Assembly (NCBI GenBank): GCA_013815575.1
Contig: JACDFX010000007.1
Span: 1-16,949 of the forward strand
DNA length: 16,949 bases
From: Rubrobacter sp.
Lineage (GTDB): Bacteria > Actinomycetota > Rubrobacteria > Rubrobacterales > Rubrobacteraceae
Direction of reading: 5' to 3'
This document shows positions 1 through 15,630 of the stretch, in pieces. Every line of letters starts with the position of its first letter. The stretch's first letter is position 1. The translations under genes and the position numbers were made by a program. The notes beneath the pieces are model-generated. The model saw nothing but the letters and a program-made list of their open reading frames with translations. It was not told where the DNA came from and made no database searches.

Positions 1-1
1 C

Positions 2-961
2 GGTACCGGCTTCGCCTTCGACGTGATCGTGGACCGCGCCCTGGATATCGGCCGCTGTGAGATGGGCGGGCGCTCTCTGGGCTGGCTCTCGCCGGTAGGC
101 TTCGCGGGCCCGTGGTTCGCCGAGACCGAGGGCCTGGGATTCTTGCGCAACTGGGGTGGCGGCCTGCTCACGACCGCGGGCCTCGACCACGCCCTCTCCA
201 TGGCCGAGGACACCGCCGAGCACTACCACTACCCGCCGAAGAAGACCGAGGGCCACGGCCTGCACGGGCGCGTCTCGAACCTCCCGGCCAGGCTCGTCGG
301 CTACGGAGAGCGGTGGAGTGGCGACGAATGCGTCCTCTGGGCCGAGGGCGAGGTGCGTCAGGCGGCGGTCTTCGGCGAGAACCTCGTGCTCCGTCGACGC
401 GTCGAGGCGAGGGTGGGGGAGTCCAGGTTCAAGATCCACGACGAAGTCGAGAACGCGGGCTTCGACCCGACGCCGCACATGTACCTCTACCACGTCAACG
501 TCGGCTGGCCCGTAGTGGACGATGGCGCGGAGCTCCTCGCGCCCGCCAGTAGCGTCTCCCCGCGCGGCGACTACCCGGCCGAGGGCTACGAGAAGTTCCA
601 CGGCCCCGAAAAGGGCTACGTCGAGCGGGTCTTCGAGCACGACCTCGCCGCGGAAGAGGACGGAACCGTGCCGGTCGGCGTGGCCAACCGGGGCGCGGGC
701 CTCGGTCTCTACCAGCTCTACAGGAAGGACCAGCTCCCCTACCACTTCATCTGGCGGATGCTCGGCGAGGGGACCTACGCCGTCGGTGTCGAGCCCAGCA
801 CCAACCGTACCGCGGGACGGCTCGACGCCAGGGAGCGCGGGGAGCTAATCCAACTCTCCCCTGGAGAGAGGCGCCTCTACGACCTGGAGCTCGGCGCCCT
901 CGACGGAAGAGAGGAGATCGACCGCTTCGCCTCCCGCGTCGGAGCCCTGGGCCCGGGATAG
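2..961 (+). CDS. DUF4432 family aldose-1-epimerase-like protein (5' truncated)
   Basis: The reading frame is open from the first complete codon, so the true start lies left of the window. About 320 residues are visible and the gene ends with TAG. The sequence reads like the DUF4432 family, a branch of the galactose mutarotase fold: an N-terminal VDRALDIG stretch, then WLSPVGFAGPWF, then GHGLHGRVSNLPAR, then YLYHVNVGWPVVDDGAELLAP. In mutarotases histidines and a carboxylate catalyse anomer interconversion; the His of HGLHGR and of LYHVN are the obvious candidates here. No signal peptide can be judged because the N-terminus is missing. A role in presenting a sugar for the oxidative sugar-acid pathway encoded further right is possible, but the gene is about 3 kb away and on the other strand from frmAB, so that is inference. 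The family call is firm; the substrate is unknown. Confidence 0.8.
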   Translation, partial: GTGFAFDVIVDRALDIGRCEMGGRSLGWLSPVGFAGPWFAETEGLGFLRNWGGGLLTTAGLDHALSMAEDTAEHYHYPPKKTEGHGLHGRVSNLPARLVGYGERWSGDECVLWAEGEVRQAAVFGENLVLRRRVEARVGESRFKIHDEVENAGFDPTPHMYLYHVNVGWPVVDDGAELLAPASSVSPRGDYPAEGYEKFHGPEKGYVERVFEHDLAAEEDGTVPVGVANRGAGLGLYQLYRKDQLPYHFIWRMLGEGTYAVGVEPSTNRTAGRLDARERGELIQLSPGERRLYDLELGALDGREEIDRFASRVGALGPG

Positions 962-966
962 AAACG

Positions 967-995
967 TCCCGCGGCCCTTGGACATCGACGCGGGA
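967..995. terminator. Candidate bidirectional terminator between convergent genes
   Basis: Arms TCCCGCG (967-973) and CGCGGGA (989-995) form a perfect 7-bp stem with a 15-nt loop. The hairpin lies in the 57-nt gap between the stop of the DUF4432 gene and the stop of frmB, which converge. There is no clear T-run on either side, so it is called on position and symmetry only. Confidence 0.35.
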
Positions 996-1018
996 GGCCG
1001 GGGGCAAGTGTCCGGCGG

Positions 1019-1870
1019 TCAGCCTTCCAGGGCCGCGGCGTGGTGTCGGATGTGGTCCTCCATGAAGGTGGAGATGGTGTAGTAGGAGTGGTCGTAGCCC
1101 TCGCGGCGGTTGAGGGTCAGGGGCTGCCCCGACTCGGCGCAGGCCTCCTCCAGGACTTCGGGGAGGAGTTGCTCTTCGAGGAACTGGTCGGAGAGGCCCT
1201 GGTCCACGAGGATGTTCCGTCCGTCGGCGAATGGATGCCCGCGCACTATTTCGCTCGCGTCGTAGGCCTTCCAGGCCTCCCTGTCCCCCCCGAGGTAGCC
1301 GGTAAAGGCCTTCTCGCCCCAGGGGACTCGGGTCGGGGCGGAGATGGGGGCGAAGGCCGAGACGGAGCGGAAAAGGTCGGGGTTCTTGAGGGCGCAGACG
1401 AGGGCGCCGTGGCCACCCATGGAGTGGCCGAAGACGCCGGCGGCGTCGGGCCGGGCGGGGAAGTGCCCACCGACGACGAGCGGCAGTTCTTGCGTGAGGT
1501 AGGAGTACATTCTGTAGTGTTGGGACCAGGGCTCCTCGGTGGCGTCCACGTAGAAGCCGGCGCCGGTGCCGAAGTCCCAGTCCTCGTCCTCGCCGGGGAC
1601 GTTGGCGTCCCTCGGGCTCGTGTCCGGCGCGACCAGCATCAGGCCGTGTTCGGCGGCGTGGCGTTGGGCTCCGCCCTTGATCATGAAGGTCTCTTCCGTG
1701 CAGGTCAGGCCGGCCAGGTAGTAGAGGACCGGGACGGGCCCCTCCGTGGCCTGGGGGGGCGTGTAGACGGCGAAGCGCATCCCGCCGTCGCAGGCCTCGG
1801 AGTGGTGGCTGTAGAAGCCGGTCTTGCCGCCGAAGCTGGCGTGTTCGCTGTGGGTCTCTATGTTCGTCAT
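1019..1870 (-). CDS. frmB: S-formylglutathione hydrolase (esterase D family)
   Basis: It hydrolyses S-formylglutathione to formate and glutathione, the second step of glutathione-dependent formaldehyde oxidation, in the cytoplasm. The 283-residue length matches human esterase D and E. coli FrmB. Visible family marks are YYLAGLTCTEE near residues 50-60, the nucleophile motif GHSMGG with Ser150, a probable acid at Asp228 in DQGLSDQFL, and the catalytic His261 in DHSYY. The spacing of Ser to His (111 residues) is that of esterase D. ATG at 1870 begins 4 nt after the frmA stop, so the two genes are almost certainly co-transcribed and translationally coupled. The ring of downstream sarcosine oxidase and demethylation genes supplies a plausible formaldehyde source. 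No internal damage is seen. Confidence 0.95.
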   Translation of the reverse strand: MTNIETHSEHASFGGKTGFYSHHSEACDGGMRFAVYTPPQATEGPVPVLYYLAGLTCTEETFMIKGGAQRHAAEHGLMLVAPDTSPRDANVPGEDEDWDFGTGAGFYVDATEEPWSQHYRMYSYLTQELPLVVGGHFPARPDAAGVFGHSMGGHGALVCALKNPDLFRSVSAFAPISAPTRVPWGEKAFTGYLGGDREAWKAYDASEIVRGHPFADGRNILVDQGLSDQFLEEQLLPEVLEEACAESGQPLTLNRREGYDHSYYTISTFMEDHIRHHAAALEG

Positions 1871-1874
1871 ACGG

Positions 1875-2984
1875 CTAGAACGTCACGACGCTGCGGATGG
1901 ACTCGCCGCTGTGCATAAGGTCGAAGGCCGTGTTGATCTCTTCGAGGGGCATGGTGTGGGTGATCATGGAGTCAACCTCGATCTTGCCCTCCATGTACCA
2001 GTCCACGATCTTCGGAACGTCCGTCCTGCCCCTGGCCCCCCCGAAGGCCGACCCCTTCCACGTCCTGCCGGTGACGAGCTGGAACGGGCGCGTGGAGATC
2101 TCCTCCCCCGTCCCCGCCACCCCGATGATGACCGACTGCCCCCAGCCCTTGTGGGCGCACTCTAAAGCCTGGCGCATCACGTTGACGTTGCCGATGCACT
2201 CGAAGGAGTAGTCCGCCCCGCCGCCCGTCAGGTCCACGAGGTAGGGTACGAGGTCCCCCTCGACCTCGCTCGGGTTGACGAAGTGGGTCATCCCGTACCG
2301 CTCGGCTATGGCCTTCTTGGCCGGGTTGAGGTCGACGCCCACGATCTTGTCGGCCCCGACCATGCGCGCGCCCTGCACGACGTTCAGGCCGATGCCCCCG
2401 AGGCCGAAGACGACGACGCTGGAGCCTGGCTCGACGCCTGCCGTGTAGACCACGGCCCCGAGGCCTGTCGTCACGCCGCAGCCGATGTAGCAGACCTTGT
2501 CGAAGGGGGCGTCCTCGCGGATCTTGGCCGCCGCGATCTCCGGCAGCACGGTGTAGTTGGAGAACGTCGAGGTCCCCATGTAATGGTAGAGCTCCTCCCC
2601 GTTCAGCGAGAGTCGGCTCGTACCGTCCGGCATTACGCCGCGCCCCTGCGTGGTCCGGATGGCCTGGCACAAGTTGGTCTTCGGGTTGAGGCAGTACTCG
2701 CACTCCCGGCACTCGGGGGTGTAGAGCGGGATGACGTGGTCCCCCTCCTTGAGGCTCTTGACCCCGGGTCCCACGCCCACCACGATGCCCGCCCCCTCGT
2801 GGCCCATCACGGTGGGAAACAGCCCTTCAGGGTCGGCCCCGGAGAGCGTGTACGCGTCCGTGTGGCACACCCCGGTGGCCTTGATCTCCACCAGGACCTC
2901 GCCCTCCTTCGGGCCTTCCAGGTCAACAGTCTCGATGCTCAACGGTTTCTCGGCCTCGAAGGCGACCGCTGCTCTTGTCTCCAT
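1875..2984 (-). CDS. frmA: S-(hydroxymethyl)glutathione dehydrogenase / class III alcohol dehydrogenase
   Basis: Zinc-dependent NAD(P) dehydrogenase that oxidises S-hydroxymethylglutathione, formed spontaneously from formaldehyde and glutathione, to S-formylglutathione; class III enzymes also reduce S-nitrosoglutathione. Its 369 residues are the usual length. Catalytic zinc ligands are Cys40, His62 (GHEGAG) and Cys169 (IGCGVTTG). The structural zinc lobe has Cys92, Cys95, Cys98 and Cys106. The Rossmann nucleotide motif GLGGIG is at 194-199 and VGVDLNP follows. The ATG at 2984 has a strong Shine-Dalgarno GGAGGAGGAG just upstream, on the complement of 2986-2995. It is the first gene of frmAB. 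A mycothiol-dependent homologue (MscR) would be the alternative in an actinobacterium, but pairing with an esterase D type hydrolase argues for glutathione. Confidence 0.95.
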
Positions 2985-3087
2985 CTCTCCTCCTCCACTA
3001 CCCGGTTACGGCCCAACACAATAGCACGGAGTGAAGGCCAAACTGGAGACGGGGACCACGCCGAGACGCGGAAAGGGCGGACGTGCG

Positions 3088-3136
3088 GATCTACGTGTTC
3101 CCTCGCGCCGATCAACGTGGCGTATCTATCGGCGCG
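3088..3136 (-). promoter_or_regulatory. Candidate frmAB promoter overlapped by a 9-bp palindrome
   Basis: Arms CGCGCCGAT (3104-3112) and ATCGGCGCG (3128-3136) form a perfect inverted repeat with a 15-nt spacer. Reading the minus strand, TTGATC (3115-3110) and TAGATC (3093-3088) are separated by 16 nt and could be -35 and -10 boxes for frmA, with the palindrome lying over the -35. That would be a repressor or activator site, perhaps formaldehyde-responsive. The -10 is poor (3 of 6), so this is tentative. The rest of the 261-nt frmA/hydrolase gap holds only the two hairpins listed next. Confidence 0.3.
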
Positions 3137-3157
3137 GTAACCGAGTCTTACTAAATA

Positions 3158-3192
3158 ACGGCGGGGCTATTTCCCCCCTCCTGCCCCGCCGT
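3158..3192 (-). terminator. Candidate terminator of the alpha/beta hydrolase gene
   Basis: Arms ACGGCGGGGC (3158-3167) and GCCCCGCCGT (3183-3192) form a perfect 10-bp stem with a 15-nt loop. On the minus strand the stem is followed by TATTTAG, a weak T-rich tail. It lies 54 nt past the hydrolase stop and before frmA, so it probably separates the two minus-strand transcripts. Confidence 0.5.
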
Positions 3193-3198
3193 CTATCT

Positions 3199-3225
3199 TT
3201 CGTGCAGAATCTTCGTCCGCACGAA
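3199..3225. repeat. Inverted repeat TTCGTGC / GCACGAA
   Basis: Perfect 7-bp arms at 3199-3205 and 3219-3225 with 13 nt between. A further CGTGCA core follows at 3250-3255. It sits between the hydrolase stop and the 10-bp hairpin, so it could be a second stem of the terminator region or a protein-binding site. No function can be assigned. Confidence 0.3.
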
Positions 3226-3245
3226 TATCCGCCGCCGGCGGCAAT

Positions 3246-4163
3246 TTATCGTGCAAGGTCGGACGGGGATTGGGGTCTTATCTGGCCCTCTACTCGGGTG
3301 AGGAACTCGTCGAGCGTGGAGAGGAAGCGCTCGTGTTCTTCGGCGAACGGGTAGTGCGAGCTCCGCCCGAAGAGGACGAGCTCCGAGTTCGGTATGCCCG
3401 CGTGGAGATCCCGCTCCTGGCCCGCGGCCATGCCATCGTACCGGCCGGCGACGACGAGCGTAGGCCCGGTTATCCCTCTGAGACGTGGACGCAGGTCCCA
3501 CGTGGCGAGCGGGCCGGGCACCGGGGCGTTCGGTTGGCCCCACATGGCTGCGTTCGCCTCCACGTCCATCTTCGACAACGCCCGGTTCAGCCAATCGGGC
3601 CACGGGTCGAGCCGGCAGGAGTAGCGCCGGTGGAAGAGATCCATGGCCTCCCCGTATTCCGGGTCGTCGAAGGTGCCCGCCGCCTCGTGCTTGCGGATAG
3701 CACTCCGCGCTTCACGTGGCAGCTTCTCGTAGAAGTCTTGCCGACGATCGAGCATCGTTCTTCCGCCCGCCACGGCCCCGACGAGGACCAGGCTCGCGAG
3801 GCCGCCCGTCCCGCCCAGCGCGTGCTCCATCGCCAGGAGGCCGCCCCACGAGTGGCCTAGAAGGTGGACGGCGTCGAGCCCGAGTTCGCGCCGGACTACC
3901 GCAAGCTCCTCCAGAAAAAGCCCGACGCTCCACGGGTTGGGAGCCGCGGTACGGGTAGAGTTGCCGCAGCCGAGCTGGTCGTAGAACACGACCGGGCGTC
4001 CGGTTCGCGCCAGATCCGCCAGGGGTTCGAGGCTGTCGTGCGGGAGTCCGGGTCCTCCGTGCAGCGCCAGCACGGGAAGCTTGCGCTCCGGAGGGCTTGC
4101 CGGGTCGCCGAAGACCCGATACCAGGTCTCGAAACCGTCGAAAGAGATCCTGCCTTCGCCCAT
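3246..4163 (-). CDS. Alpha/beta hydrolase, proline iminopeptidase-like (peptidase family S33)
   Basis: A 305-residue cytoplasmic alpha/beta hydrolase. It has the oxyanion motif HGGPG at residues 35-39, YDQLGCGNS near 61-69, the nucleophile elbow GHSWGG with Ser105, an acid at Asp243 in AGRYD, and a catalytic His270 in SSHYPFAEE. HGGPG together with YDQLGCGNS is the signature of prolyl aminopeptidases and close relatives (tricorn-interacting factor F1, amidases, epoxide hydrolases), which cleave N-terminal proline or small amides. The true substrate cannot be read from sequence. ATG at 4163 is chosen; GTG at 4166 is equally possible. Neither has a close ribosome site: GGGGAGG lies about 25 nt upstream on the minus strand (4195-4189), and no in-frame start sits nearer to it. 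It is monocistronic, divergent from the UxaA-family gene, and separated from frmA by hairpins. Confidence 0.85.
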   Translation of the reverse strand: MGEGRISFDGFETWYRVFGDPASPPERKLPVLALHGGPGLPHDSLEPLADLARTGRPVVFYDQLGCGNSTRTAAPNPWSVGLFLEELAVVRRELGLDAVHLLGHSWGGLLAMEHALGGTGGLASLVLVGAVAGGRTMLDRRQDFYEKLPREARSAIRKHEAAGTFDDPEYGEAMDLFHRRYSCRLDPWPDWLNRALSKMDVEANAAMWGQPNAPVPGPLATWDLRPRLRGITGPTLVVAGRYDGMAAGQERDLHAGIPNSELVLFGRSSHYPFAEEHERFLSTLDEFLTRVEGQIRPQSPSDLAR

Positions 4164-4320
4164 CACAAGCCAGGCCGCACGACGTCGTCCTCCCCGGTCG
4201 TTTGGACCGTCGGGGACCCATCATACCCCGGAGGGGATCGCGGCTCTCGCCGCGGACGGAACGGCAAGATACTCTGGGGTAGACTTGCTCCGAACAGTCC
4301 CTAGAGCGATGGGAGGCAGC
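4164..4320. promoter_or_regulatory. Divergent intergenic region, hydrolase / UxaA-family gene
   Basis: This region must carry promoters for both flanking genes. On the minus strand TATGAT (4225-4220) is a good -10 hexamer (5 of 6) about 50 nt ahead of the hydrolase start, but no -35 stands out. A compact inverted repeat, CGCGGC (4239-4244) and GCCGCG (4249-4254) with a 4-nt spacer, is a candidate operator midway between the genes. On the + strand TAGACT (4280-4285) is a weak -10 candidate for the dehydratase gene. None of these is certain. Confidence 0.3.
4311..4316 (+). promoter_or_regulatory. Ribosome binding site deciding the UxaA-family start
   Basis: GGGAGG lies 4 nt before GTG 4321. 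The in-frame ATG at 4309 overlaps this site and has no Shine-Dalgarno of its own, so GTG 4321 is preferred as the start. The frame remains open further upstream to 4081, but that stretch overlaps the opposite-strand hydrolase and is unlike SAF-domain sequence. Confidence 0.55.
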
Positions 4321-7125
4321 GTGAACCCCAACAAAGACCGCTTCGACTTCGATGAGGTCGGCAGGCTTCCCGCCGCCGGTGACAACGTGGCGATAGCGAC
4401 CCGCCGCCTGGAGGTGGGGACCCGTTTCTCTTACGAAGGCTCTGAGCTCGAGGTGCCGCACACCGTCCTCGAAGGCCACCGCTTCGCCGTCGAAGAGATA
4501 CCCGAGGGCGAAGACCTCCTCTCCTGGGGGCTGCCTTTCGGGTGGGCCACGAAAGATATCGCTCCGGGAGACTATGCTTGCAACGAGAAGATCCTGCACG
4601 TCCTGCACGAGCGTTTCAGGCCCACCTCTACCCGTTCCACCGAAGACCCTGAGGGGACCTCGGACCAGGGCGGGGGACGCGTCCCGGGCGGCTACCGCAA
4701 GGCCGGCCTCGATCTGCCCGAGACCGCCAACTTCCGCGACGCCGAGCTCGAACCCTACGTCCTGGACGAGGAGGGTTTTCGTCCGGGTGAACAGGTGCCG
4801 CCCTACGACGAGCCCCGCGCCTTTATGGGCTACCGGCGCGGCGGAGGACGGGGCGTCGGGACGCGCAACTACCTCGTCGTGCTGGGCGTCAACTCGCGGC
4901 TCACGGGCTTCGTGCGGGCACTTGAGTGGGAGATGAACGGCGTGGCGGACGGCTACGAGAACGTGGATGGCATCGTTTGCGTCGCCCACACCGAGGGGGG
5001 AGAGGGCCGGACGCCGAACAACCTGGATCTTCTGCTGCGCACCTTGAGCGGCTTCATGGTCAACCCCAACGTGGGGGCGGTGCTCGCCATCGACGGTGGC
5101 GACGAGGGCGCCGTTGCCAACGGGACGCTCCGCCGCTACGCCGAGGAACACGACTACCCTCTGGACGAAGTCCCGCACGAGTTCATGAGCCTGGAGGGGA
5201 GCTTCCGGGCCGACCTGGAGCGGGCCAAGGCCCGGGTGATGGACTGGATGGAGAGCGTGAACGCCGCCCGGCGCACGGAGGAGCCGCTCTCGGAGCTCAA
5301 GATAGGACTTCAGTGCGGCGGGTCGGACGCGTTCTCGGGCGTCTCGGCCAACCCGCTCGTCGGGTGGGTCTCGAAGGAGGTCGTGCGGAACGGCGGGGCG
5401 GCCAATTTGGCTGAGACGGACGAGCTGATCGGGGCCGAGCGTTACGTCCTGAAGAACGTGAAGAGCGCCGAGACGGCGCGTCGCTTCCTCGGGGCGGTCG
5501 AGCGGTTCAAGGAGCGGGTCGGCTGGCACGGGCACACGGCGGAGGACAACCCTTCGGGCGGCAACAACTTTCGCGGGCTCTACAACATCTCCATAAAGTC
5601 CATCGGGGCCGCGAGGAAGAAGGACCCGGAGGTGAGGGTGGACCACGTCATCGAGTACGCGGAGCCCATGCGCGGTGGCGGCTTCTACTTCATGGACAGC
5701 CCCGGCAACGACCTGGAGAGCGTGGCGGGTCAGGTCGCGTCGGGGGCCAACATGATCTTCTTCACCACAGGCAACGGCTCCATCACCAACTTTCCCTTCG
5801 TCCCGACCATAAAAGTCGTCACCACCACTGGCCGCTACGACCTCCTCTCCAAGGACATGGATGTCAACGCCGGCGCCTACCTCGATGGCGTCCCAATGGA
5901 CGAGCTCGGCGAGGAGATGTTCGAACGGACCATCACCGCCGCCTCGGGCGAGAAGACCGTCGGCGAGCGGGCCGGGCACGCCCAGGTCTCCATCTGGCGC
6001 GACTGGAAGCAGACGGGACCGGATAATCTGGAAAAACTGGAGAACGCCGCCGAGCCCGACGGCGAGCCGCTACCCGTGAAAACCGGTGTTCCGGAAGTGA
6101 ACTTCTCCTTCGAGGCCATAAAGACGCGGCGTGGTCCCGTCACGGACCAGGTCGGGCTGGTGATGCCGACGAGTTTGTGCTCGGGCCAGATCGCACGCCG
6201 CATAGCCAACCGCCTCAACGAGCAGGGTGGGGGCTTCGCCGGGGACAAGGTCACCCGCTTCGTCGCCCTGCCGCACACGGAGGGCTGCGGCGTCTCCGCC
6301 GGCTCCGCCGAAGCCATCTACTCCCGCACCGTGCTCGGCTACCTCGCCAACCCCACCGTCCGGCTCGCCCTCCTACTCGAACATGGCTGCGAGAAGACCC
6401 ACAACGACTACTTCGAGAACCGCCTCGCCGAACGCGGCCTCGACCGCGACCGATTCGGCTGGGCCAGCGTCCAGCTAGACGGCGGCATAGAGAGCGTGGT
6501 CCAGAAGGTCGAAACCTGGTTCTCGGAGCACCTGAAGGCCTCCGACGATTTGGAGTACGAGGGCGCCGGACCCGGCGCCCTGCGGCTCGGTCTCCACGCC
6601 GCCGGCCCCTTGCCTGACGAAGCGGCCCGCGCCCTGGCCGAGACGACGCTCGCCGTCGTCGGCTCGGGCGGCACGGTCGTCGTCCCGGAGACGGCGGCGG
6701 TGCTCGGCTCGAAGATCTACCTGGACGCCGTGCTCGGGGAGCACCCGGTCCAGAATACCCTGTCCTACGGGCAGGCCTTCGAGAAGTCCGGCTTTCATGT
6801 CATGGAGTCGCCGACGGACCACTGGGTCGAGACGGCGACGGGGCTCGGGGCGACGGGGGTGGAGTTAATGCTCGCTCACGTCGCCGGGCGGCCGTTGCAG
6901 GCGCACCGCATGATCCCACTGGTCCAGGCCTCCTCAGACCCCGAAACCATCCGCAAACACGCCGACGACCTCGACACCCTTCTCGACGAAGGCCCAAACG
7001 GTTGGACGGAAAAGATACTGGAGACCGTCGCGGCCGTTGCCTCCCGCGAGTACACGCCCAGGCTCTTCGAGGCGGGCAACACGGACTTCCAATTCACCCG
7101 CGGGCTTCTCGGCGTCTCGATGTAA
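4321..7125 (+). CDS. UxaA/GarD-family sugar-acid dehydratase with tandem, reciprocally degenerate duplication
   Basis: This 934-residue protein is nearly twice the usual ~500 residues of altronate (UxaA) or galactarate (GarD) dehydratases, which remove water from aldonic or aldaric acids to give 2-keto-3-deoxy acids. Residues ~1-100 form the SAF-like domain. Copy 1 begins at FMGYRRGGG (168). Its first half lacks the family cysteines: HTEGGEG at 223-229 replaces HTxGCG, and DGGDEG near 258 replaces the GCE motif. Its second half is intact, with QCGGSD (Cys332), MDSPGND (458) and DMDVNAG (512-518). Copy 2 begins near 611: its first half is intact (Cys620, HTEGCG with Cys656, HGCE with Cys690), but its second half has decayed (HAAGPLP at 759-765 in place of QCGGSD; MESPTDH at 828) and lacks about 50 residues. 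It stands alone on the + strand, convergent with a 2-keto-3-deoxy-acid operon it probably feeds. The substrate is unknown. Confidence 0.88.
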   Translation: MNPNKDRFDFDEVGRLPAAGDNVAIATRRLEVGTRFSYEGSELEVPHTVLEGHRFAVEEIPEGEDLLSWGLPFGWATKDIAPGDYACNEKILHVLHERFRPTSTRSTEDPEGTSDQGGGRVPGGYRKAGLDLPETANFRDAELEPYVLDEEGFRPGEQVPPYDEPRAFMGYRRGGGRGVGTRNYLVVLGVNSRLTGFVRALEWEMNGVADGYENVDGIVCVAHTEGGEGRTPNNLDLLLRTLSGFMVNPNVGAVLAIDGGDEGAVANGTLRRYAEEHDYPLDEVPHEFMSLEGSFRADLERAKARVMDWMESVNAARRTEEPLSELKIGLQCGGSDAFSGVSANPLVGWVSKEVVRNGGAANLAETDELIGAERYVLKNVKSAETARRFLGAVERFKERVGWHGHTAEDNPSGGNNFRGLYNISIKSIGAARKKDPEVRVDHVIEYAEPMRGGGFYFMDSPGNDLESVAGQVASGANMIFFTTGNGSITNFPFVPTIKVVTTTGRYDLLSKDMDVNAGAYLDGVPMDELGEEMFERTITAASGEKTVGERAGHAQVSIWRDWKQTGPDNLEKLENAAEPDGEPLPVKTGVPEVNFSFEAIKTRRGPVTDQVGLVMPTSLCSGQIARRIANRLNEQGGGFAGDKVTRFVALPHTEGCGVSAGSAEAIYSRTVLGYLANPTVRLALLLEHGCEKTHNDYFENRLAERGLDRDRFGWASVQLDGGIESVVQKVETWFSEHLKASDDLEYEGAGPGALRLGLHAAGPLPDEAARALAETTLAVVGSGGTVVVPETAAVLGSKIYLDAVLGEHPVQNTLSYGQAFEKSGFHVMESPTDHWVETATGLGATGVELMLAHVAGRPLQAHRMIPLVQASSDPETIRKHADDLDTLLDEGPNGWTEKILETVAAVASREYTPRLFEAGNTDFQFTRGLLGVSM
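4822..7122 (+). repeat. Protein-level tandem duplication inside the UxaA-family gene
   Basis: Copy 1 spans about 4822-6090 and copy 2 about 6151-7122. Matching landmarks are HTEGGEG (copy 1) with HTEGCG (copy 2), LKIGLQCGG with LRLGLHAAG, LAETDELIGAERYVL with VPETAAVLGSKIYL, and MDSPGNDLESVAG with MESPTDHWVETATG, in the same order. No clear DNA-level repeat is evident, so the duplication is old. Confidence 0.7.
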
Positions 7126-7131
7126 GAGGCA

Positions 7132-7170
7132 GGGCCCGCGAACACGACGCCACGCTCCGGACGCGGGCCC
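7132..7170. terminator. Candidate bidirectional terminator between UxaA-family gene and SDR gene
   Basis: Arms GGGCCCGCG (7132-7140) and CGCGGGCCC (7162-7170) form a perfect 9-bp stem with a 21-nt loop. It lies in the 97-nt gap between two convergent stop codons, where a shared terminator is expected. No T-run follows on either side. Confidence 0.5.
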
Positions 7171-7222
7171 CGGATTTCCAGGGCGTGGAAGGAGTGCGCC
7201 ACGTCGAGAAGGTGTGAGCCCC

Positions 7223-7993
7223 TTACCGTCCCAGCCAGCCCCCGTCCACCGGCAGGATGGTACCGTGGATAAAGTCCCCCGCCGCCGATGAGAGCAGCAC
7301 CACCGCCCCCTTGAGATCCTCCGGCTCCCCGTACCGGCCCGCAGGTATTCGCGCCAGTAGCGCCGCTGAGCGCTCCTCATTCTCCCTGATGGCGCCCGTC
7401 AGTTCGGTGGTGTAGTAGCTGGGCGCCACGGCGTTGACGTTTATGCCAAGCGGCGCCCACTCGTTCGCCAAGGCCCGCGTCAGGTTCGCGATGCCGGCCT
7501 TCGAGGCGGCGTAGGAGGGGACGGTGATGCCACCCTCGTAGGAGAGGACGGAGGCCGTGTTGATTATCTTTCCCCCGCCCCCCTGCTCGACGAAGCGTCT
7601 GGCGGCGGCCTGGGAGAGGTAGAAGGCGGCGGAGAGGTTTACCTGGATGACGCCCTCCCAGTCGTCTTCGCCGAACTCCAGGGCCGCACCACGCCGAATG
7701 ATCCCGGCGTTGTTGACGAGGATGTCGAGGCGCCCCATCTCCGACACGCAATGGGCCACGATCTCCGCCGCCCCCTCCGCCTTTGTCTGCAGGAGGTTCC
7801 TGTTCATGGCGTGGAAGCGGCGGCCGGTGGCGGCGACTTTGTCTTCCGTTTCTTCCATCGGGACGATGTCCAGGCCGATCACGTCCGCGCCGGCCTCGGC
7901 GAGGCCGAGGGCCATGCCCTGGCCGAGGCCGCGGGCCGCACCCGTGACGAGGGCGACCTTGCCGTTCAGCATGAGGTTGTCGAGGACGCCCAC
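7223..7993 (-). CDS. KduD-like short-chain dehydrogenase/reductase
   Basis: A 256-residue classical SDR. It has the cofactor motif TGAARGLG at 17-24, NNAG at 94-97, Ser148, and the catalytic Tyr161-x3-Lys165 pair in YAASK. The C-terminal RIPAGRYGEPEDLKGAVV and VDGGWLGR are typical of the KduD group (2-dehydro-3-deoxy-D-gluconate 5-dehydrogenase) and of gluconate 5-dehydrogenases. It likely oxidises or reduces a hydroxyl of a sugar acid or keto-deoxy sugar acid with NAD(P). GTG at 7993 is taken as the start because it overlaps the cupin stop by one base (TAGTG) and has GGAG about 11 nt upstream; ATG at residue 8 is an alternative. It is the last gene of a five-gene minus-strand operon. Whether the substrate is a free sugar, an aldonate or a keto-deoxy acid cannot be decided here. 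Confidence 0.88.
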   Translation of the reverse strand: MGVLDNLMLNGKVALVTGAARGLGQGMALGLAEAGADVIGLDIVPMEETEDKVAATGRRFHAMNRNLLQTKAEGAAEIVAHCVSEMGRLDILVNNAGIIRRGAALEFGEDDWEGVIQVNLSAAFYLSQAAARRFVEQGGGGKIINTASVLSYEGGITVPSYAASKAGIANLTRALANEWAPLGINVNAVAPSYYTTELTGAIRENEERSAALLARIPAGRYGEPEDLKGAVVLLSSAAGDFIHGTILPVDGGWLGR

Positions 7994-8478
7994 TAGAAGC
8001 AGAGCTCCATCTGCTCGATGCCCTGTTCCTCGCAGAACCTCGTGTAGCGTTCGAGCTTGGAGAAGACGTCGTCCTGGTAGATGAGGTTGTCCGAATCGTC
8101 CAGGTACTGAACGGTGCCTTCGAGGATGAAGAGGGTCTGCATCTCCTCGACGCCCTCGTCAACCACCAGGGTGTGTATGTCGCCGGGGGGTTCGTAGACG
8201 AGGGTGCCGGGCCTCGCGACCCAGTCGCGCTCCAGGTAGTGCCAGGAGCCCTTGGTGCAGTAGCCTATCACCTGGCCGCCGGTGTGGCGGTGGCGGTTCA
8301 CTCTGCCGGAGCCCTGGACCTTGAGGAGGTTGATCCAACGCCCCGTGGCAAGGTCGAAGCGCAGGGGCTTGAACCAGACCCTCTCGCCCTGCGGGACCCA
8401 GGGGATCTCGTCCACGCTTATGGCCCTGTCCGGTAGCGCCGAGCCTTCGGTGAACGCCTTGAGGCCCTCGTCGATCAT
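7993..8478 (-). CDS. Cupin-domain protein, 2,4'-dihydroxyacetophenone dioxygenase-like
   Basis: A 161-residue single-domain cupin. Motif 1 is GRVNRHRHTGGQVIGYCTKG, with metal-ligand candidates His63 and His65 and Gln69 where many cupins have Glu. Motif 2 is PPGDIHTL, with His102. The overall pattern, including the WHYLERDWVARPGTLVYEPPG strand and the C-terminal LERYTRFCEEQG helix, resembles the 2,4'-dihydroxyacetophenone dioxygenase and ChrR-like group, which bind Fe or Zn. In a sugar-acid operon a ring- or side-chain-cleaving dioxygenase is unexpected; an isomerase, epimerase or lyase acting on a keto sugar acid is an equally good guess. It is not recognisably KduI. The ATG at 8478 overlaps the preceding VOC stop (ATGA) and the gene's own stop overlaps the SDR start, so all three are translationally coupled. 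Confidence 0.78.
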   Translation of the reverse strand: MIDEGLKAFTEGSALPDRAISVDEIPWVPQGERVWFKPLRFDLATGRWINLLKVQGSGRVNRHRHTGGQVIGYCTKGSWHYLERDWVARPGTLVYEPPGDIHTLVVDEGVEEMQTLFILEGTVQYLDDSDNLIYQDDVFSKLERYTRFCEEQGIEQMELCF

Positions 8479-8939
8479 CGCCCGTCTCCCCTCCGTGGCT
8501 TCATGTACAACGCCGCGCCTGGGGGGCCGCCGACCTTCCGGATGTCCCCGATAAGCCCCCGGTCGAGCGTGTTCACGTCCCGCCAGTTGACCTCGACCAG
8601 ATTGCCCGACGGGTCCCGCAAATACATCTGCACCGCCCCGCCAGGCAGCTCCCTGACGGTCGAGTAGTTGCCGCTCTCCACGCGGGCGCCGGTCTCCCCG
8701 GCCTTCCTGAACGCCTCCTCGAAGTCGTCAACGTCGACGGCGAAGTGGTGCCCCACGGGGGCCGGCTCCTCGTCGTGGAAGAGGTGAAGCTGCAAGTCGC
8801 CGACCCGCAGCCAGCGCACCGGGCCTGAGAAGTCCGGGGAGGGGATCTCGTCCATGCCGAAGAAGTCCTTGTAGAACCGGGCCGACTCCTCCAGATCCCT
8901 GGCGCCGATGCTGACGTGGGTGAAACCGGTCGCCTTCAC
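8475..8939 (-). CDS. VOC-family metalloprotein (glyoxalase/dioxygenase fold)
   Basis: A 154-residue protein with two beta-alpha-beta-beta-beta modules of the vicinal oxygen chelate superfamily. The N-terminus FTHVSIGARDLEESARFYKDFFGMDEI is the classic first module. Metal ligand candidates are His8, His65 (HHFAVDV) and Glu116 (DPSGNLVEVN). Members include glyoxalase I, methylmalonyl-CoA epimerase, extradiol dioxygenases and antibiotic-binding proteins, so a reaction cannot be named. The context, between a keto-acid semialdehyde dehydrogenase and a cupin, suggests work on an alpha-hydroxy-keto or dicarbonyl intermediate. The start is GTG 8939, not the longer open frame reaching 9047, because the VOC fold begins here and AGGAGG lies just upstream. 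The gap to the preceding gene is 7 nt and it overlaps the next gene by 4 nt. Confidence 0.85.
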   Translation of the reverse strand: MKATGFTHVSIGARDLEESARFYKDFFGMDEIPSPDFSGPVRWLRVGDLQLHLFHDEEPAPVGHHFAVDVDDFEEAFRKAGETGARVESGNYSTVRELPGGAVQMYLRDPSGNLVEVNWRDVNTLDRGLIGDIRKVGGPPGAALYMKPRRGDGR

Positions 8940-8942
8940 GAT

Positions 8943-8948
8943 CCTCCT
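8943..8948 (-). promoter_or_regulatory. Ribosome binding site for the VOC gene, overlapping the ALDH stop
   Basis: On the minus strand AGGAGG overlaps the TAG stop of the aldehyde dehydrogenase (TAGGAGG) and lies 3 nt before GTG 8939. The spacing is short, but no other start in the region fits the VOC fold, and the arrangement points to coupled translation. Confidence 0.55.
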
Positions 8949-10395
8949 ATAGCGGCAGGACGGAGACGGTCTTCCACGCGGAGTAGAAGTCCAGGGCCGC
9001 CGGGCCCTGCTCCCGACCGCCGACCCCCGACTCCTTGTTGCCTCCAAACGGCACCTGGAACTCCAGGCCAGCCGTCGGCAGGTTCACGTTCACAAGTCCC
9101 GTCTCCGAGCGGGCCATGAACTCGTGGGCGTAGCGCAGAGACTTCGTGGCTATGCCGGCGGTCAGGCCGTACCGGGTGTCGTTGGCGAGCTCCACGGCGT
9201 GGTCGAAGTCGCGGGCCTTTATGACCGCCAGCACGGGGCCGAAGATCTCCTCCTGCGCCGTCACACTGGAGTTGTCTACGTCCGCGATGATGGCCGGGGA
9301 GATGAAGTAGCCCTCGTCCTCCGAACCCGTCGCCCCGCCTTCGATAACGACCCTTCCTTCGCCCTTAGCCGTCTCGAGCGCCTCCAGGATACTGTCGTAC
9401 TGGCTCTTGTTGACGACGGGGCCGACGGCCACGCTCTCGTCCATGGGGTCGCCCACCTTCATGGCCTCCGTGGCGCTCTTGAGCCTTTCGAGGAACTCGT
9501 CGTAGACCTCTTCGACTACGATGGCGCGGCTGGCGGCGGTGCACTTCTCGCCGGCGAAGCCGAAGGCGCTAAAGGAGATCTTGGCCGCCGCGTCCGCGAG
9601 GTCCGCGTCCTCCATGACGACGAACGGGTTCTTGCCGCCCATCTCAAGTTGGACCTTCTTGCCTATCGCCCGCCCCTGGATGCCGAGGCCCGTCGCCGTC
9701 GAGCCTGTGAAGGAGAGGCCCTTGACGCGCGGGTCGGTCACCAGCGCGTCGCCCACGGTGGAGCCGGGGCCGGTCACAAGGTTGACGACGCCGTCGGGGA
9801 GACCGGCCTCCGAGAGGATGCCGACGAGGGCGGCGGCGTTTAGGGCGGCGTTGGCGGCTGGCTTTATGACTATGGCGTTGCCGCAGATAAGCGCCGGGGC
9901 CATCTTCCAGGACGGTATCGCCAGCGGGAAGTTCCACGGCGTTATGAGGCCGACCACACCTAACGGCTCCCTCATGGAGCTGTGGGTCACGCCCGGCCGG
10001 GCCGAGGGGGGCGAGATGCCCGCCAGGCGCCAGCCTTCGGAGCCGTAGTAGCGGAAGATGGCCGCCGCGCGGCCGACCTCCATGCGGGCCTCCTTCATCG
10101 GCTTGCCCGCCTCGCGGGCCATCAGCGTGGCGAGCTCGTCCTCCCTGGACTCGATGATGTTCGCGGCCTCCATCAGGATGGCGCCGCGGGAGGCCGGGAG
10201 CATCGCCTTCCACCCCGGGAGCGCCTTGGTGGCCGCCTCGATGGCCCGTTCGGTCTCGGCCCTGTCCGACTTCGGCGTCGTCCCGAGGACTTCTGAGGGG
10301 TTCGAGGGGTTTACCACCTCGGAGGTCTCGCCCGAGTCCGCGGGGACCCACTCGCCGCCGATAAAGTTCAGGGCTTCTGTCTGGGATTCGATCAT
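8947..10395 (-). CDS. NAD(P)-dependent aldehyde dehydrogenase, probable alpha-ketoglutarate semialdehyde dehydrogenase
   Basis: A 482-residue aldehyde dehydrogenase of normal length. Visible catalytic elements are PWNFP with Asn155, KPA (178-180) in the cofactor site, FTGST at 229-233, the general base Glu251 in LEMGGKNP, and the nucleophile Cys285 in FAGEKCTAASR. The C-terminal FGGNKESGVGGREQG followed by FYSAWKTV is typical of the alpha-ketoglutarate semialdehyde dehydrogenases (YcbD/GucD-like) and of related succinate-semialdehyde enzymes. Directly after an FAH-type keto-deoxy-pentonate dehydratase, whose product is alpha-ketoglutarate semialdehyde, that role is the best fit; the product alpha-ketoglutarate enters the TCA cycle. 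ATG 10395 has GGAGGG upstream with a good spacing. It is the second gene of the operon, 62 nt after the first, and no terminator is seen in that gap. Confidence 0.9.
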   Translation of the reverse strand: MIESQTEALNFIGGEWVPADSGETSEVVNPSNPSEVLGTTPKSDRAETERAIEAATKALPGWKAMLPASRGAILMEAANIIESREDELATLMAREAGKPMKEARMEVGRAAAIFRYYGSEGWRLAGISPPSARPGVTHSSMREPLGVVGLITPWNFPLAIPSWKMAPALICGNAIVIKPAANAALNAAALVGILSEAGLPDGVVNLVTGPGSTVGDALVTDPRVKGLSFTGSTATGLGIQGRAIGKKVQLEMGGKNPFVVMEDADLADAAAKISFSAFGFAGEKCTAASRAIVVEEVYDEFLERLKSATEAMKVGDPMDESVAVGPVVNKSQYDSILEALETAKGEGRVVIEGGATGSEDEGYFISPAIIADVDNSSVTAQEEIFGPVLAVIKARDFDHAVELANDTRYGLTAGIATKSLRYAHEFMARSETGLVNVNLPTAGLEFQVPFGGNKESGVGGREQGPAALDFYSAWKTVSVLPL

Positions 10396-10457
10396 GGTTA
10401 CCCTCCGTTGGTAGACGCTCGTCTTTTTTCTACCCGATTTACGGCCGTCTTATCTCG

Positions 10458-11276
10458 CTACGAGACCACGCTGTTTACAAGGACCAGCTCCCCGACGGAG
10501 ACCTCGACCCGGTCCCCCGGCGTCAACGTGAACTCCTCCTCGGGCACGATACCCGTGCCCGTCATCAGGAAGGCCCCCGACGGCAGGGAGAGTTCCCTGC
10601 CCAAGTACCCAGCGAGCTCCTCGAAAGAGCGCTTCATCCTGGAAGTGGAGACGTCTCCCTCGAAGACGACGTGGCCCTCCCTGGAGATGCCCAGCCGGAT
10701 GGGGAGGTCCCGCATACCGTCGGGGCCGGTGAGCACGATGCCGGGTCCCAGGGCGCACGAGCCGTCGTAGACCTTGGCCTGCGGCAGGTAGAGCGGGTTT
10801 TCGCCCTCGATATCCCGCGAGGAGACGTCGTTGCCGGCGGTAAAGCCGACGATCTCCATCCGGCTGTTCAGGACGAGCACGAGCTCCGGCTCCGGCACGT
10901 TCCAGCGGCTGTCCCGCCGGACGCGCACGCCGTCCCCGTTGCCGACGACCCGCCAGCCGTGCGCCTTGAAGAAGAGTTCCGGCCGTTCGGCGTCGTAGAC
11001 CCTTGCGTAGGCATCCGCATCGGCCGACTCCAGCTCGCGGGCCTCCCGGCTCTGCAGGTAGGTTACGCCGCTCGCCCAGACCTCCTGGTACGGCTCGACC
11101 GGGGGCAGCAGGGGATCTTCTTCTGCGGAGCCCCCCGTGCGCAGGTCTTTCAGGGCGTCCGCGGCCTCTGACGCCGGACTTTCGAGCAGCCGGCCCAGCG
11201 CGAAGTCCTCGGGCAGGTAGTGTCCGTCCAGTGCCCAGCGGGGGCCGCCGGCGGTACGGTGGCGGGACAGGTACAC
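10458..11276 (-). CDS. Fumarylacetoacetase-family 2-keto-3-deoxy-sugar-acid dehydratase (KdaD/XylX-like)
   Basis: A 272-residue FAH-fold enzyme and first gene of the operon. The stretches WASGVTYLQSREARELES, VYDAERPELFFKA, DSRWNVPEPELVLVL and NDVSSRDIEGENPLYLPQAK are those of the 2-keto-3-deoxy-arabinonate/xylonate dehydratase group. That group removes water from the five-carbon keto-deoxy acid to give alpha-ketoglutarate semialdehyde. The divalent-metal site should include Glu129 and Glu131 (VPEPEL) and Asp150 (NDVSSRD). With the ALDH gene next to it this makes the lower half of a Weimberg-type pathway. GTG 11276 is preferred, because GGAGG lies 10 nt upstream and homologues start near YLSRHR; GTG 11318, with a short GGAGATC site, would add 14 residues. 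Its transcription is probably controlled by the structured leader upstream. Other FAH-family activities (acylpyruvase, hydratase) are less likely given the conserved block. Confidence 0.85.
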   Translation of the reverse strand: MYLSRHRTAGGPRWALDGHYLPEDFALGRLLESPASEAADALKDLRTGGSAEEDPLLPPVEPYQEVWASGVTYLQSREARELESADADAYARVYDAERPELFFKAHGWRVVGNGDGVRVRRDSRWNVPEPELVLVLNSRMEIVGFTAGNDVSSRDIEGENPLYLPQAKVYDGSCALGPGIVLTGPDGMRDLPIRLGISREGHVVFEGDVSTSRMKRSFEELAGYLGRELSLPSGAFLMTGTGIVPEEEFTLTPGDRVEVSVGELVLVNSVVS

Positions 11277-11286
11277 GGTGGCGGGT

Positions 11287-11291
11287 CCTCC
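11287..11291 (-). promoter_or_regulatory. Ribosome binding site favouring the inner FAH-gene start
   Basis: GGAGG on the minus strand (complement of 11287-11291), part of a longer AGGAAAGGAGG run, stands 10 nt before GTG 11276. It lies inside the longer candidate reading frame from 11318, whose extra 14 residues look non-conserved. Confidence 0.5.
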
Positions 11292-11357
11292 TTTCCTGAC
11301 GTGACCCCAAACTATCACGATCTCCGTCCCGTCGCCCGAGGGTTTCGGGAGGGCACA

Positions 11358-11384
11358 GAAAAGCCCGGGGGGAACCCCCCGGGC
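11358..11384 (-). terminator. Intrinsic terminator upstream of, and pointing into, the FAH operon
   Basis: Arms GCCCGGGGGG (11363-11372) and CCCCCCGGGC (11375-11384) form a perfect 10-bp inverted repeat with 2 nt between. On the minus strand the stem is followed by TTTTCT, a proper U-tract; on the + strand it is not. No minus-strand protein gene of normal size ends just upstream, so the terminator lies in the 5' leader of the FAH operon, about 80 nt before its start codon. This is the layout of an attenuator or riboswitch expression platform. Confidence 0.7.
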
Positions 11385-11489
11385 CTCAGAACCGTGTTGG
11401 AGGGAAGTGCTCTCGTGGTCGGTGTGACGTCGTCACCATCAGGCCGTAGCCAGGCGCTGCTACTACAAGCGCAGAGGCGTGCTGCTGGC
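11358..11489 (-). ncRNA. Candidate structured leader RNA / attenuator of the FAH operon
   Basis: Reading the minus strand toward the FAH gene, consecutive stems can be drawn. P1 is GCCAG (11489-11485) with CTGGC (11453-11449). Inside it P2 is GCGCT (11472-11468) with AGCGC (11458-11454) and a 9-nt loop. P3 is GTGAC/GTCAC, part of a near-palindrome at 11424-11436. The intrinsic terminator follows. The 3' arms of P2 and P1 abut directly, while the 5' side has a 12-nt bulge, as in many aptamers. A 17-codon frame (11439-11386) ending exactly at the base of the terminator is also present but lacks a ribosome site. No known riboswitch class was recognised. A further small hairpin, CCCGA/TCGGG (11335-11349), lies between the terminator and the FAH start. 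Confidence 0.4.
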
Positions 11490-11490
11490 A

Positions 11491-11553
11491 TGAATTACAA
11501 CTGTAGTATTAGTTCGTGGACACCTTCCTCTCAAATTCCTTACAGGTAATTCA
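11491..11553. repeat. Paired inverted sites TGAATTAC / GTAATTCA in the divergent promoter region
   Basis: TGAATTAC at 11491-11498 is followed by AACTGTA, and its inverse GTAATTCA at 11546-11553 is preceded by TTACAG. Both therefore read TGAATTAC-n-CTGTA in opposite orientations, about 55 nt apart. The left copy also contains TACAACTGTA, an imperfect palindrome of the kind bound by GntR-type regulators. The sites lie in an AT-richer stretch between two divergent operons and are good candidates for operator sites of a shared regulator that is not encoded in this window. Confidence 0.4.
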
Positions 11554-11581
11554 CACCAAGCGTTAAAGAGATGCGTATACA

Positions 11582-11620
11582 GCAACCATGGTTGCGTTTA
11601 AGTTTGGCGCATGATACATT
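11582..11620 (+). promoter_or_regulatory. Candidate promoter of the one-carbon operon with palindromic operator
   Basis: GCAACCATGGTTGC (11582-11595) is a perfect 14-bp palindrome. Overlapping its right end, TTGCGT (11592-11597) can serve as a -35 box, with a 17-nt spacer to TACATT (11615-11620). TACATT is preceded by TGA, giving an extended -10 element. Transcription would start near 11627, about 100 nt before the methyltransferase gene. A repressor bound to the palindrome would block the -35, so the operon is probably regulated. The -35 match is modest (3 of 6). Confidence 0.5.
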
Positions 11621-11712
11621 CCTGAGCGTGAAGAGAAAAGAACAGGGGGCTAGGCTGAAGATTCTGAAGAAACGCACCTAGAAAGACGGTTACCGGTCAC
11701 AGGAGTCCCGGT

Positions 11713-11720
11713 GAGGAGGA
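11713..11720 (+). promoter_or_regulatory. Ribosome binding site supporting a TTG start at 11727
   Basis: GAGGAGGA with a GGAGG core at 11715-11719 stands 7 nt before TTG 11727. This spacing is ideal, and the next in-frame ATG (11760) has no such site, so the rare TTG is taken as the start. Confidence 0.65.
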
Positions 11721-11726
11721 GTTCTC

Positions 11727-12938
11727 TTGCGCATACCCTACGACACCCCAAGGATCCACATGTACACACGGATCCGCAAGTCTCCCTACTTCTACGCCCA
11801 CCAGCGCCACGGCGTCCAGTCCTACACGGTCTGCAATCGCCAGTACCATCCCAGGCACTACGACGACATGATTTCCGAGTACTGGAAGCTCGTCAACGAC
11901 GTCACCATGTGGGACGTAGCCGTGGAGCGGCAGGTCGAGATCACCGGCTCCGACGCTTTCACTTTCACCAACATGCTAACCCCGCGCGACCTGACGAAGT
12001 GTGAGGTCACGCAGTGCAAGTTCGCGCTCAACACCGACGTCGACGGCGGCATCATCAACAACCCTGTGTTGCTGCGTCTGGGAGCGAACCACTTCTGGTT
12101 GTCCGTGGCGGATGGAGACGTGCTGTTGTGGGCCAAGGGCATAGCAAGCGTTCTGGATCTGGACGTGCAGATTCGGGAGCCCGACGTGGCGCCGGTCCAG
12201 ATTCAGGGGCCGAAGTCCAGGGACCTCATGGTCGACCTCTTCGGCGAGAAGGTCCTGGACATCAAGTACTACTGGATGGCCGAGTACGAGCTCGACGGTA
12301 TGGACGTCGTCGTGTCGCGGACCGGCTACACAGGCGAGGTAGGGTACGAGATCTACCTCAGGAACGCCAGCCAGTATGGCATGAAGTTTTGGGACACGGT
12401 GCTCGAGGCAGGCAAGCCCCACAACCTCGCGGTAATCGGGCCGTGCCAGATCCGGCGCGTGGAAGCCGGTATCCTCAGCTACGGCTCCGACATAGCGCTG
12501 GACAACAACTTCTACAGCGATTACGCGTTCCTGAACCCCTACGAGGTAGGGTTGGAGTACACGGTGGAGTTGGACCAGGAGGCCGACTTCATCGGTAAAG
12601 AGGCCTTAAAGCGTGTCGCGGACGAGGGGGTCAGCCGCAAGGTGGTCGGGGTCGAGATCGAGGGCGATCCGCTGGTAGGGTACATAGAGGACTACCTGCA
12701 GGTCGTCCAGGACGGCTCGCAGATCGGGCAGGTCTCCTCGGCGTTCTGGTCCCCCCGACTGAAAAAGAACATAGGGTTCGCCCTGGTGCCCATCGAGCAC
12801 GCCGACCTTGGAACCGAACTCACGGTCAGGTCCAACGTCGGTGATGTCGCGGCCAGGGTCGTGGAGAGGCCCTTCATAGATCCGAGGAAGCAGACTCCCA
12901 AGACGGATCTGAGAAGGGAGACGACCAAATCATACTGA
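11727..12938 (+). CDS. GcvT/DmdA-family tetrahydrofolate-dependent methyltransferase (demethylase)
   Basis: A 403-residue protein of the glycine-cleavage T-protein fold, with the sequence style of the DmdA (dimethylsulfoniopropionate demethylase) branch: EYWKLVNDVTMWDVAVERQVEITG (51-74), GGIINNPVLLRL (107-118), EPDVAPVQIQGPKS (151-164), SRTGYTGEVGYEIYL (197-211), IRRVEAGILSYGSDI (242-256) and DFIGKEAL (287-294). DmdA moves a methyl group from DMSP to tetrahydrofolate, giving 5-methyl-THF. The Asp-Asp pair that activates folate in true GcvT reads Asn-Asn here (111-112), which favours methyl rather than aminomethyl transfer. It is the first gene of an operon with a MetF-like gene and sarcosine oxidase, so glycine betaine, dimethylglycine or another N- or S-methyl donor is a plausible substrate. 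DMSP itself is not proved. It is cytoplasmic, with no signal peptide. The TTG start is supported by a strong ribosome site. Confidence 0.82.
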   Translation: MRIPYDTPRIHMYTRIRKSPYFYAHQRHGVQSYTVCNRQYHPRHYDDMISEYWKLVNDVTMWDVAVERQVEITGSDAFTFTNMLTPRDLTKCEVTQCKFALNTDVDGGIINNPVLLRLGANHFWLSVADGDVLLWAKGIASVLDLDVQIREPDVAPVQIQGPKSRDLMVDLFGEKVLDIKYYWMAEYELDGMDVVVSRTGYTGEVGYEIYLRNASQYGMKFWDTVLEAGKPHNLAVIGPCQIRRVEAGILSYGSDIALDNNFYSDYAFLNPYEVGLEYTVELDQEADFIGKEALKRVADEGVSRKVVGVEIEGDPLVGYIEDYLQVVQDGSQIGQVSSAFWSPRLKKNIGFALVPIEHADLGTELTVRSNVGDVAARVVERPFIDPRKQTPKTDLRRETTKSY

Positions 12939-12996
12939 GTCGGAGTTTCGCCGGGGTCAGGCACGGGCCCGTCAAACTTCTACAGGAACCGTCGAG

Positions 12997-13863: not shown

Positions 13864-13939
13864 TGGCTAGGTCGACCCCTCTCTCCTCCTTGTTCTCGAC
13901 CGGCGCCGACGGCTACGTGCGGGCCAGGAGATAAATCGG

Positions 13940-15250: not shown

Positions 15251-15271
15251 GCGCATGGTCGGGGGTGAGGC

Positions 15272-15598
15272 GTGATCCTGCTGCCCTGCCCGTACTGCGG
15301 ATCTCGTAACGTTTCGGAGTTCCGTTACGTCGGCGAGCTTTCGACGCGCCCCGACCCGAACGCGACCAATGCCGAAGAATGGAGGGCTTTCCTCTACGTG
15401 CGGGCCAACCCGGCGGGCTGGACGACGGAGACCTGGTTCCACCGCGCCGGTTGCAGGCAGCACTTCGTCGTCGAGCGGCACACGGTGACAAACGAAGTGC
15501 GGACCTCACGGTTGCCCGCCGCGCAACTGCGCGATAGGGAAGACGAGCGGGCCACCGGCGGGAACGTCGCGAACGACAGCGGGGGTGCGACCTATTGA
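15272..15598 (+). CDS. soxD: Sarcosine oxidase, delta subunit
   Basis: A 108-residue small subunit of heterotetrameric sarcosine oxidase that binds zinc and stabilises the complex. The zinc site is readable as Cys6 and Cys9 (PCPYCGSRN) with His57 and Cys61 (WFHRAGCRQ). The FRYVGE and EEWRAFLYVRANPAGWTTETW stretches are characteristic of SoxD. The C-terminal 25 or so residues are polar and probably disordered. GTG 15272 follows a G-rich ribosome site (GGGGGTGAGG). The gap to soxB is 21 nt, and the SoxA gene starts at or just after its stop, so the unit is a tight soxBDA operon. Confidence 0.94.
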   Translation: MILLPCPYCGSRNVSEFRYVGELSTRPDPNATNAEEWRAFLYVRANPAGWTTETWFHRAGCRQHFVVERHTVTNEVRTSRLPAAQLRDREDERATGGNVANDSGGATY

Positions 15599-15630
15599 CG
15601 CAGGCGGTGCCGACAATCGCCAGGAACTCC

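Follow-up and report, generated by a model that had tools for sequence, protein, structure and literature searches.

A double-length UxaA-family protein of Rubrobacter sp. with complementary cysteine loss in its two copies, a candidate single-chain pseudo-heterodimer

The double-length gene and its two copies

The gene described here codes for a double-length UxaA-family protein and lies in a stretch of Rubrobacter sp. DNA of 16,949 nucleotides (assembly GCA_013815575.1, contig JACDFX010000007.1, positions 1 to 16,949), referred to below as the window. It occupies 4321..7125 of the forward strand as an open frame that begins with GTG at 4321 and ends with a stop codon at 7125, giving 934 residues, and the sequence ggagg at 4312..4316 on the same strand reads as its likely ribosome-binding site. 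These boundaries, together with all the motif positions quoted in an earlier reading made from the sequence only, were found to be correct. Pfam finds both GD_AH_second and GD_AH_C in two stretches each, and the protein scores 137.1 bits against PF04295 and 305 bits against PF20629, both well above cut-off.

The features of the protein, all on the forward strand, follow one another as a single SAF-like domain and two UxaA/GarD units. The core of the SAF-like domain (residues 19-86, 4375..4578) has no Pfam match and was assigned from PDB matches, by which the N-terminal SAF (beta-clip) domain of the UxaA/GarD superfamily is present. Copy 1 consists of a second domain without the three cysteines (S1, GD_AH_second, 4816..5268) and an intact C domain (C1, 5290..6009, the best GD_AH_C stretch, residues 323-562), which carries Cys332 of QCGGSD (5314..5316), the fourth cysteine of the site. 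Copy 2 consists of a second domain with three cysteines (S2, GD_AH_second, 6139..6555), namely Cys620 (6178..6180), Cys656 of HTEGCG (6286..6288) and Cys690 of HGCE (6388..6390), followed by a degenerate C domain delimited by hhalign (C2, 6574..7116), in which CGGSD and about 55 residues are gone. By the genome search, GD_AH_second lies at 4828-5262 in copy 1 and at 6157-6537 in copy 2. The protein has the GarD fold, and the full-length chain is predicted as one confident body (predicted template modelling score, pTM, 0.90).

The sequence-only reading had taken the two units as homologous, and this is borne out by hhalign, which aligned copy 1 with copy 2 at a probability of 99.5 (E 4e-22) over 308 columns with 22% identity. 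In that alignment Arg193, Gly227 and Asp261 of copy 1 stand opposite Cys620, Cys656 and Cys690 of copy 2, HAAGPLP of copy 2 (position 759) is aligned to CGGSD of copy 1, and the roughly 55 missing residues are C1 residues without a partner in C2. The motifs of copy 1 are HTEGGEG at 223, DGGDEG at 258, QCGGSD at 331, MDSPGND at 458 and DMDVNAG at 512. All four conserved cysteines are thus present in the whole protein, and in neither unit alone, copy 1 keeping only Cys332 and copy 2 keeping the other three, as had been proposed. This complementary pattern of the two copies is beyond chance. Two details of the earlier description needed amendment. The second half of copy 2 has indeed lost QCGGSD and about 55 residues, but DLD and MESP remain at the places of DMDVNAG and MDSPGND; likewise, the first half of copy 1, described as eroded, has lost its three cysteines but remains under constraint, since its HTEG is invariant in all 55 aligned rows of the fused form.

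Conservation, distribution and separate-gene counterparts

Single-copy members of the family provide a yardstick for this split. Among 79 single-copy open reading frames (ORFs), 69 carry cysteine at all four places, E. coli UxaA and GarD included, and two show a gap at the cysteine places in that alignment and all four cysteines in another. PMC6336799 describes the four cysteines as a conserved feature of UxaA/GarD enzymes, sulfolactate sulfo-lyase excepted, proposes that all four hold one iron, and reports that Cys-to-Ser mutants were assayed. The window's own genome also has a single-copy gene of the UxaA family (L001, contig C328), in which the fourth cysteine alone is kept.

In the fused form the split is strictly kept. 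Positions 332, 620, 656 and 690 are cysteine in all 121 rows formed by the query together with the 120 best-listed homologs (77-90% identity, 97-100% query coverage) and are invariant in the 55 aligned rows as well. A larger set of 311 unique fused rows was gathered by similarity to the window protein and is thus no neutral sample; all 264 of those that span the four places have the four cysteines, some genes possibly being counted twice with slightly different ends, and none of the 219 rows that span all eight places has a cysteine at the other four. Seven partial rows, which do not span all four places, have a residue other than cysteine at one of 620, 656 and 690.

A contig scan of other genomes gave 171 relatives, of which 80 were kept, and each of these 80 matches the window protein along its length, one of them (L041) being cut at residue 818 by the end of its contig. 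The relatives belong to at least eight phyla, the kept ones coming from Rubrobacteraceae, Poribacteria, Entotheonella, Chloroflexota, Latescibacterota, Gemmatimonadota, an acidobacterium, Trueperaceae, Paenibacillus, Alicyclobacillus and Ammoniphilus. In a sample of genomes from the phylum of the window, eight of nine of the genus (counting the window's own) carry the fused form, as do 17 of 30 from the other genera of the family, some of them cut by contig ends; two more of these 30 have a single-copy match only, and 29 of the 357 remaining genomes have a match, which among the matches listed is single-copy in span. Outside the 264 rows, a Pantoea soli plasmid carries a fused form that is 41% identical and has the same cysteine split. 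This gene (L232, 6983-9610) lies beside genes for GntR, a fumarylacetoacetate hydrolase (FAH) family protein and a 2-keto-3-deoxygluconate permease, and its plasmid is typed as mobilizable, which suggests horizontal transfer.

The same split is also found between separate genes. A PF04295 search of Alicyclobacillus tolerans, a relative, returned adjacent UxaA genes, and in one pair the two genes, A (like copy 1) and B (like copy 2), have a SAF gene between them. In the order of Alicyclobacillus, which we take to be Alicyclobacillales, 59 genomes were searched, the domain was found in 40 and an A/B pair in 16, and all 16 pairs read A-SAF-B, the B of L211 being cut at a contig end. B was matched in 107 of 398 genomes of the wider phylum sample; among the matches listed, only those in A. 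tolerans and in L152, at a contig edge, extend over most of B. Haloarchaeal plasmids carry triplets in the same order (nine pairs, from nine examined of 14 plasmid records with a long match); in L240 B is preceded by a small additional ORF. Most of these haloarchaeal B proteins are nearly full length (371-393 residues, one 340), and the genes are annotated only as UxaA family hydrolase. Of the 25 pairs, 24 were flagged as complementary, L211 ending before the fourth place, so that complementary cysteine loss is seen in 23 of the 24 fully readable pairs. The residues that replace the lost cysteines differ between lineages.

Three further B-like ORFs stand outside the 25 pairs. A second A. tolerans copy (L150, 1-7001) has SAF and B, the latter 97% identical to B of the first locus, with A in fragments in several frames; another is that of L152. 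In L226 (9321-10050) a SAF gene is followed by an ORF of 145 residues that has the cysteine-bearing second domain only, without a C domain.

A tree was built from single-copy and A-type units with the cysteine columns removed. In it, copy 1 of the fused form, A of the Alicyclobacillus type and haloarchaeal A each form a clade of their own (support 100/100), and a single clade of all three is rejected by the approximately unbiased (AU) test (p 0.0077). The tree drew on Pantoea and 17 of the 55 aligned rows for the fused form, on 11 of the 16 Alicyclobacillus-order pairs, on four of the nine haloarchaeal pairs and on 28 single-copy units, and omitted L145 (two units), L147, L152 and all B and copy 2 units; a first tree had omitted L145_s4991 and L211_B. 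We conclude from these sequences that the A-type unit had at least two origins. How the two copies came together in the fused chain may be read in more than one way, since in one fused protein (L148) each copy scores far below many single-copy enzymes against the profile of the other, so that a fusion of two paralogs fits as well as a duplication.

A proposed composite site and the alternatives

We consider it likely, from sequence comparison, that the 934-residue protein is a sugar-acid dehydratase in the form of a pseudo-heterodimer with one composite iron site within one chain. The usual UxaA/GarD homodimer would have turned into a single chain with two unlike halves, and whereas a pair of equal subunits would make a pair of equivalent sites, one site here would be alive and one dead. 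In the live site, S2 would supply Cys620, Cys656 and Cys690 as iron ligands and C1 would supply Cys332 and the residues that handle the substrate, while the mirror site of S1 and C2 would have decayed and now serve as scaffold. The reaction would convert a sugar acid to a 2-keto-3-deoxy acid by dehydration. The contact of the intact halves, the binding of iron there, the dehydration of aldonates or aldarates and the assembly within a single chain are what we infer from these patterns, and the metal may be either the single iron proposed in PMC6336799 or a cluster with three cysteine ligands. One site would need one SAF domain, and a single one is present.

The argument starts from conservation, which across phyla indicates that the protein is not dead. 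Were each site confined to a single unit and dependent on all four cysteines, neither unit could be active; therefore the two units share a site, or copy 1 functions in the absence of the first three cysteines. The latter alternative, in which copy 1 alone would be the enzyme, without a cysteine cluster, and copy 2 would be structural or regulatory with its cysteines holding a structural iron or zinc, seems unlikely to us, though some observations favor it. Eight of the 79 single-copy ORFs keep only the fourth cysteine, L001 among them, sulfolactate sulfo-lyase is exempt from the four-cysteine conservation as PMC6336799 describes it, and C1 is the most conserved part of the fused protein, with 35.0% invariant columns in the 55 rows. 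However, S2 (22.3%) is more conserved than S1 (13.2%) and C2 (9.4%), and a copy 1 that is independent of the cysteines leaves unexplained why copy 2 retains exactly the three that are missing, with HTEGC and HGCE, and yet lost the fourth and its C domain, and why the same split recurs in separate-gene pairs. The shared site is favored because three invariant cysteines of copy 2 would otherwise have no explanation, and its main support comes from the A/B pairs, from the deep conservation of the fused form and from the repeated origin of the A-type unit, so that the combination of halves put forward in the sequence-only reading gains ground.

It is still less probable that the composite site forms between two 934-residue chains by domain exchange. 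The sequence does not tell the one-chain and two-chain cases apart, and the separate-gene pairs would indicate no more than that different polypeptides can build the site together, but the single chain is predicted as one confident body. A decaying gene or an assembly artefact without composite function, to which the low-identity and partly degenerate copy 2 might point, is highly improbable and is contradicted by the open frame, the ribosome-binding site and the identical cysteines in all covering relatives across phyla.

Several observations weigh against the single-chain composite site and its repeated origin. The eight single-copy ORFs without the first three cysteines indicate that a unit of this kind can exist outside an A/B pair; the fourth cysteine, kept where the others are gone, suggests a role of its own. 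The invariant HTEG of copy 1 means that S1 is not simply dead. Among the pairs, the exception to complementary loss is L239 (Haladaptatus sp. YSMS36), whose B has a lone cysteine at the fourth place, in GIVCSDLSESS and without CGGSD, and in L145 of A. tolerans (4991-7298) two UxaA genes around a SAF gene both lack the first three cysteines, perhaps a heteromer that dropped the whole cysteine cluster. The AU test, which was run after the first tree had been seen, speaks weakly on the pairwise groupings (Alicyclobacillus-type with haloarchaeal A, p 0.126; Alicyclobacillus-type A with fused copy 1, 0.058; haloarchaeal A with fused copy 1, 0.0495). The fragment that joins C1 and S2 (residues 318-748) was predicted to fold with an intermediate pTM of 0.73, without a control, and the coupling analysis was uninformative.

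For the family at large, we regard it as fairly probable that complementary half-decay of a UxaA/GarD dimer had at least two origins, one giving the fused chain now present in many phyla and at least one other giving the separate A and B genes of Bacillota and haloarchaea. In that case the site of the ordinary UxaA/GarD homodimer would probably also lie between subunits, with the three-cysteine cluster of each chain opposite the CGGSD domain of its partner. The composite site would predict that UxaA and GarD have their active site at the subunit interface. The parting of the metal-ligand half from the catalytic half more than once amounts to an experiment of nature on a family of iron enzymes about which little is understood, and its repetition points to where the site lies and to which residues serve each half. 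If this is true, the single-site pseudo-dimers would number well over a hundred protein clusters, which now bear the name 'UxaA family hydrolase' or 'altronate dehydratase' or no name, and some separately encoded UxaA proteins would be only one subunit of a heteromer, inactive if expressed alone.

Neighboring genes and known systems

To the right of the 934-residue gene lie three genes of the reverse strand, a short-chain dehydrogenase/reductase of the KduD type (7223..7993; TIGR01832, 340.2 bits, cut-off 338.85), an aldehyde dehydrogenase nearest to alpha-ketoglutaric semialdehyde dehydrogenase (8947..10395; NF042993, 529.6 bits, below the cut-off of 770) and an FAH-family protein (10458..11318; PF01557, E 4e-18), which would fit a non-phosphorylating sugar-acid route. 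Elsewhere in the window, a class III alcohol dehydrogenase (TIGR02818, above cut-off) adjoins a putative esterase at 1019-2984, in what looks like a formaldehyde-removal pair, and on the far side a group of GCV_T, MTHFR-like and DAO genes (11727-15250) looks like a demethylation cluster.

The window protein is a variant of the known UxaA/GarD family. D-altronate dehydratase UxaA and galactarate dehydratase GarD combine PF04295 and PF20629 with a SAF domain (PDB 6u7l), whereas the window protein is of double length and has the four cysteines divided over two unlike copies; against the galactarate dehydratase equivalog TIGR03248 it scores 183.6, far from the cut-off of 730.85. D-arabinonate dehydratase C785_RS13685, of the same superfamily, has all four cysteines in one ordinary chain, and its Cys134, 173, 208 and 276, compared by the numbering published in PMC6336799, match 620, 656, 690 and the lost place at 760 in order and almost in spacing. 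The heteromeric L-fuconate dehydratase A19U_RS0100650/0100655, named in PMC6336799 as unpublished data, is a UxaA/GarD enzyme made from two gene products, which may be only a SAF and a catalytic subunit, as in SuyAB. With regard to sulfolactate sulfo-lyase (SuyB), the cysteine set points both ways, since the whole window protein keeps the set and copy 1 by itself is without it. The A-SAF-B triplets of Alicyclobacillus kin and haloarchaea share the complementary cysteine loss with the window protein, but they consist of three polypeptides with SAF between A and B and have other replacement residues. Mammalian adenylyl cyclase C1/C2 and the LacAB isomerase are pseudo-heterodimers with one live and one dead site. 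In these unrelated enzymes two homologous units each supply part of one site, as the two copies of the window protein would do.
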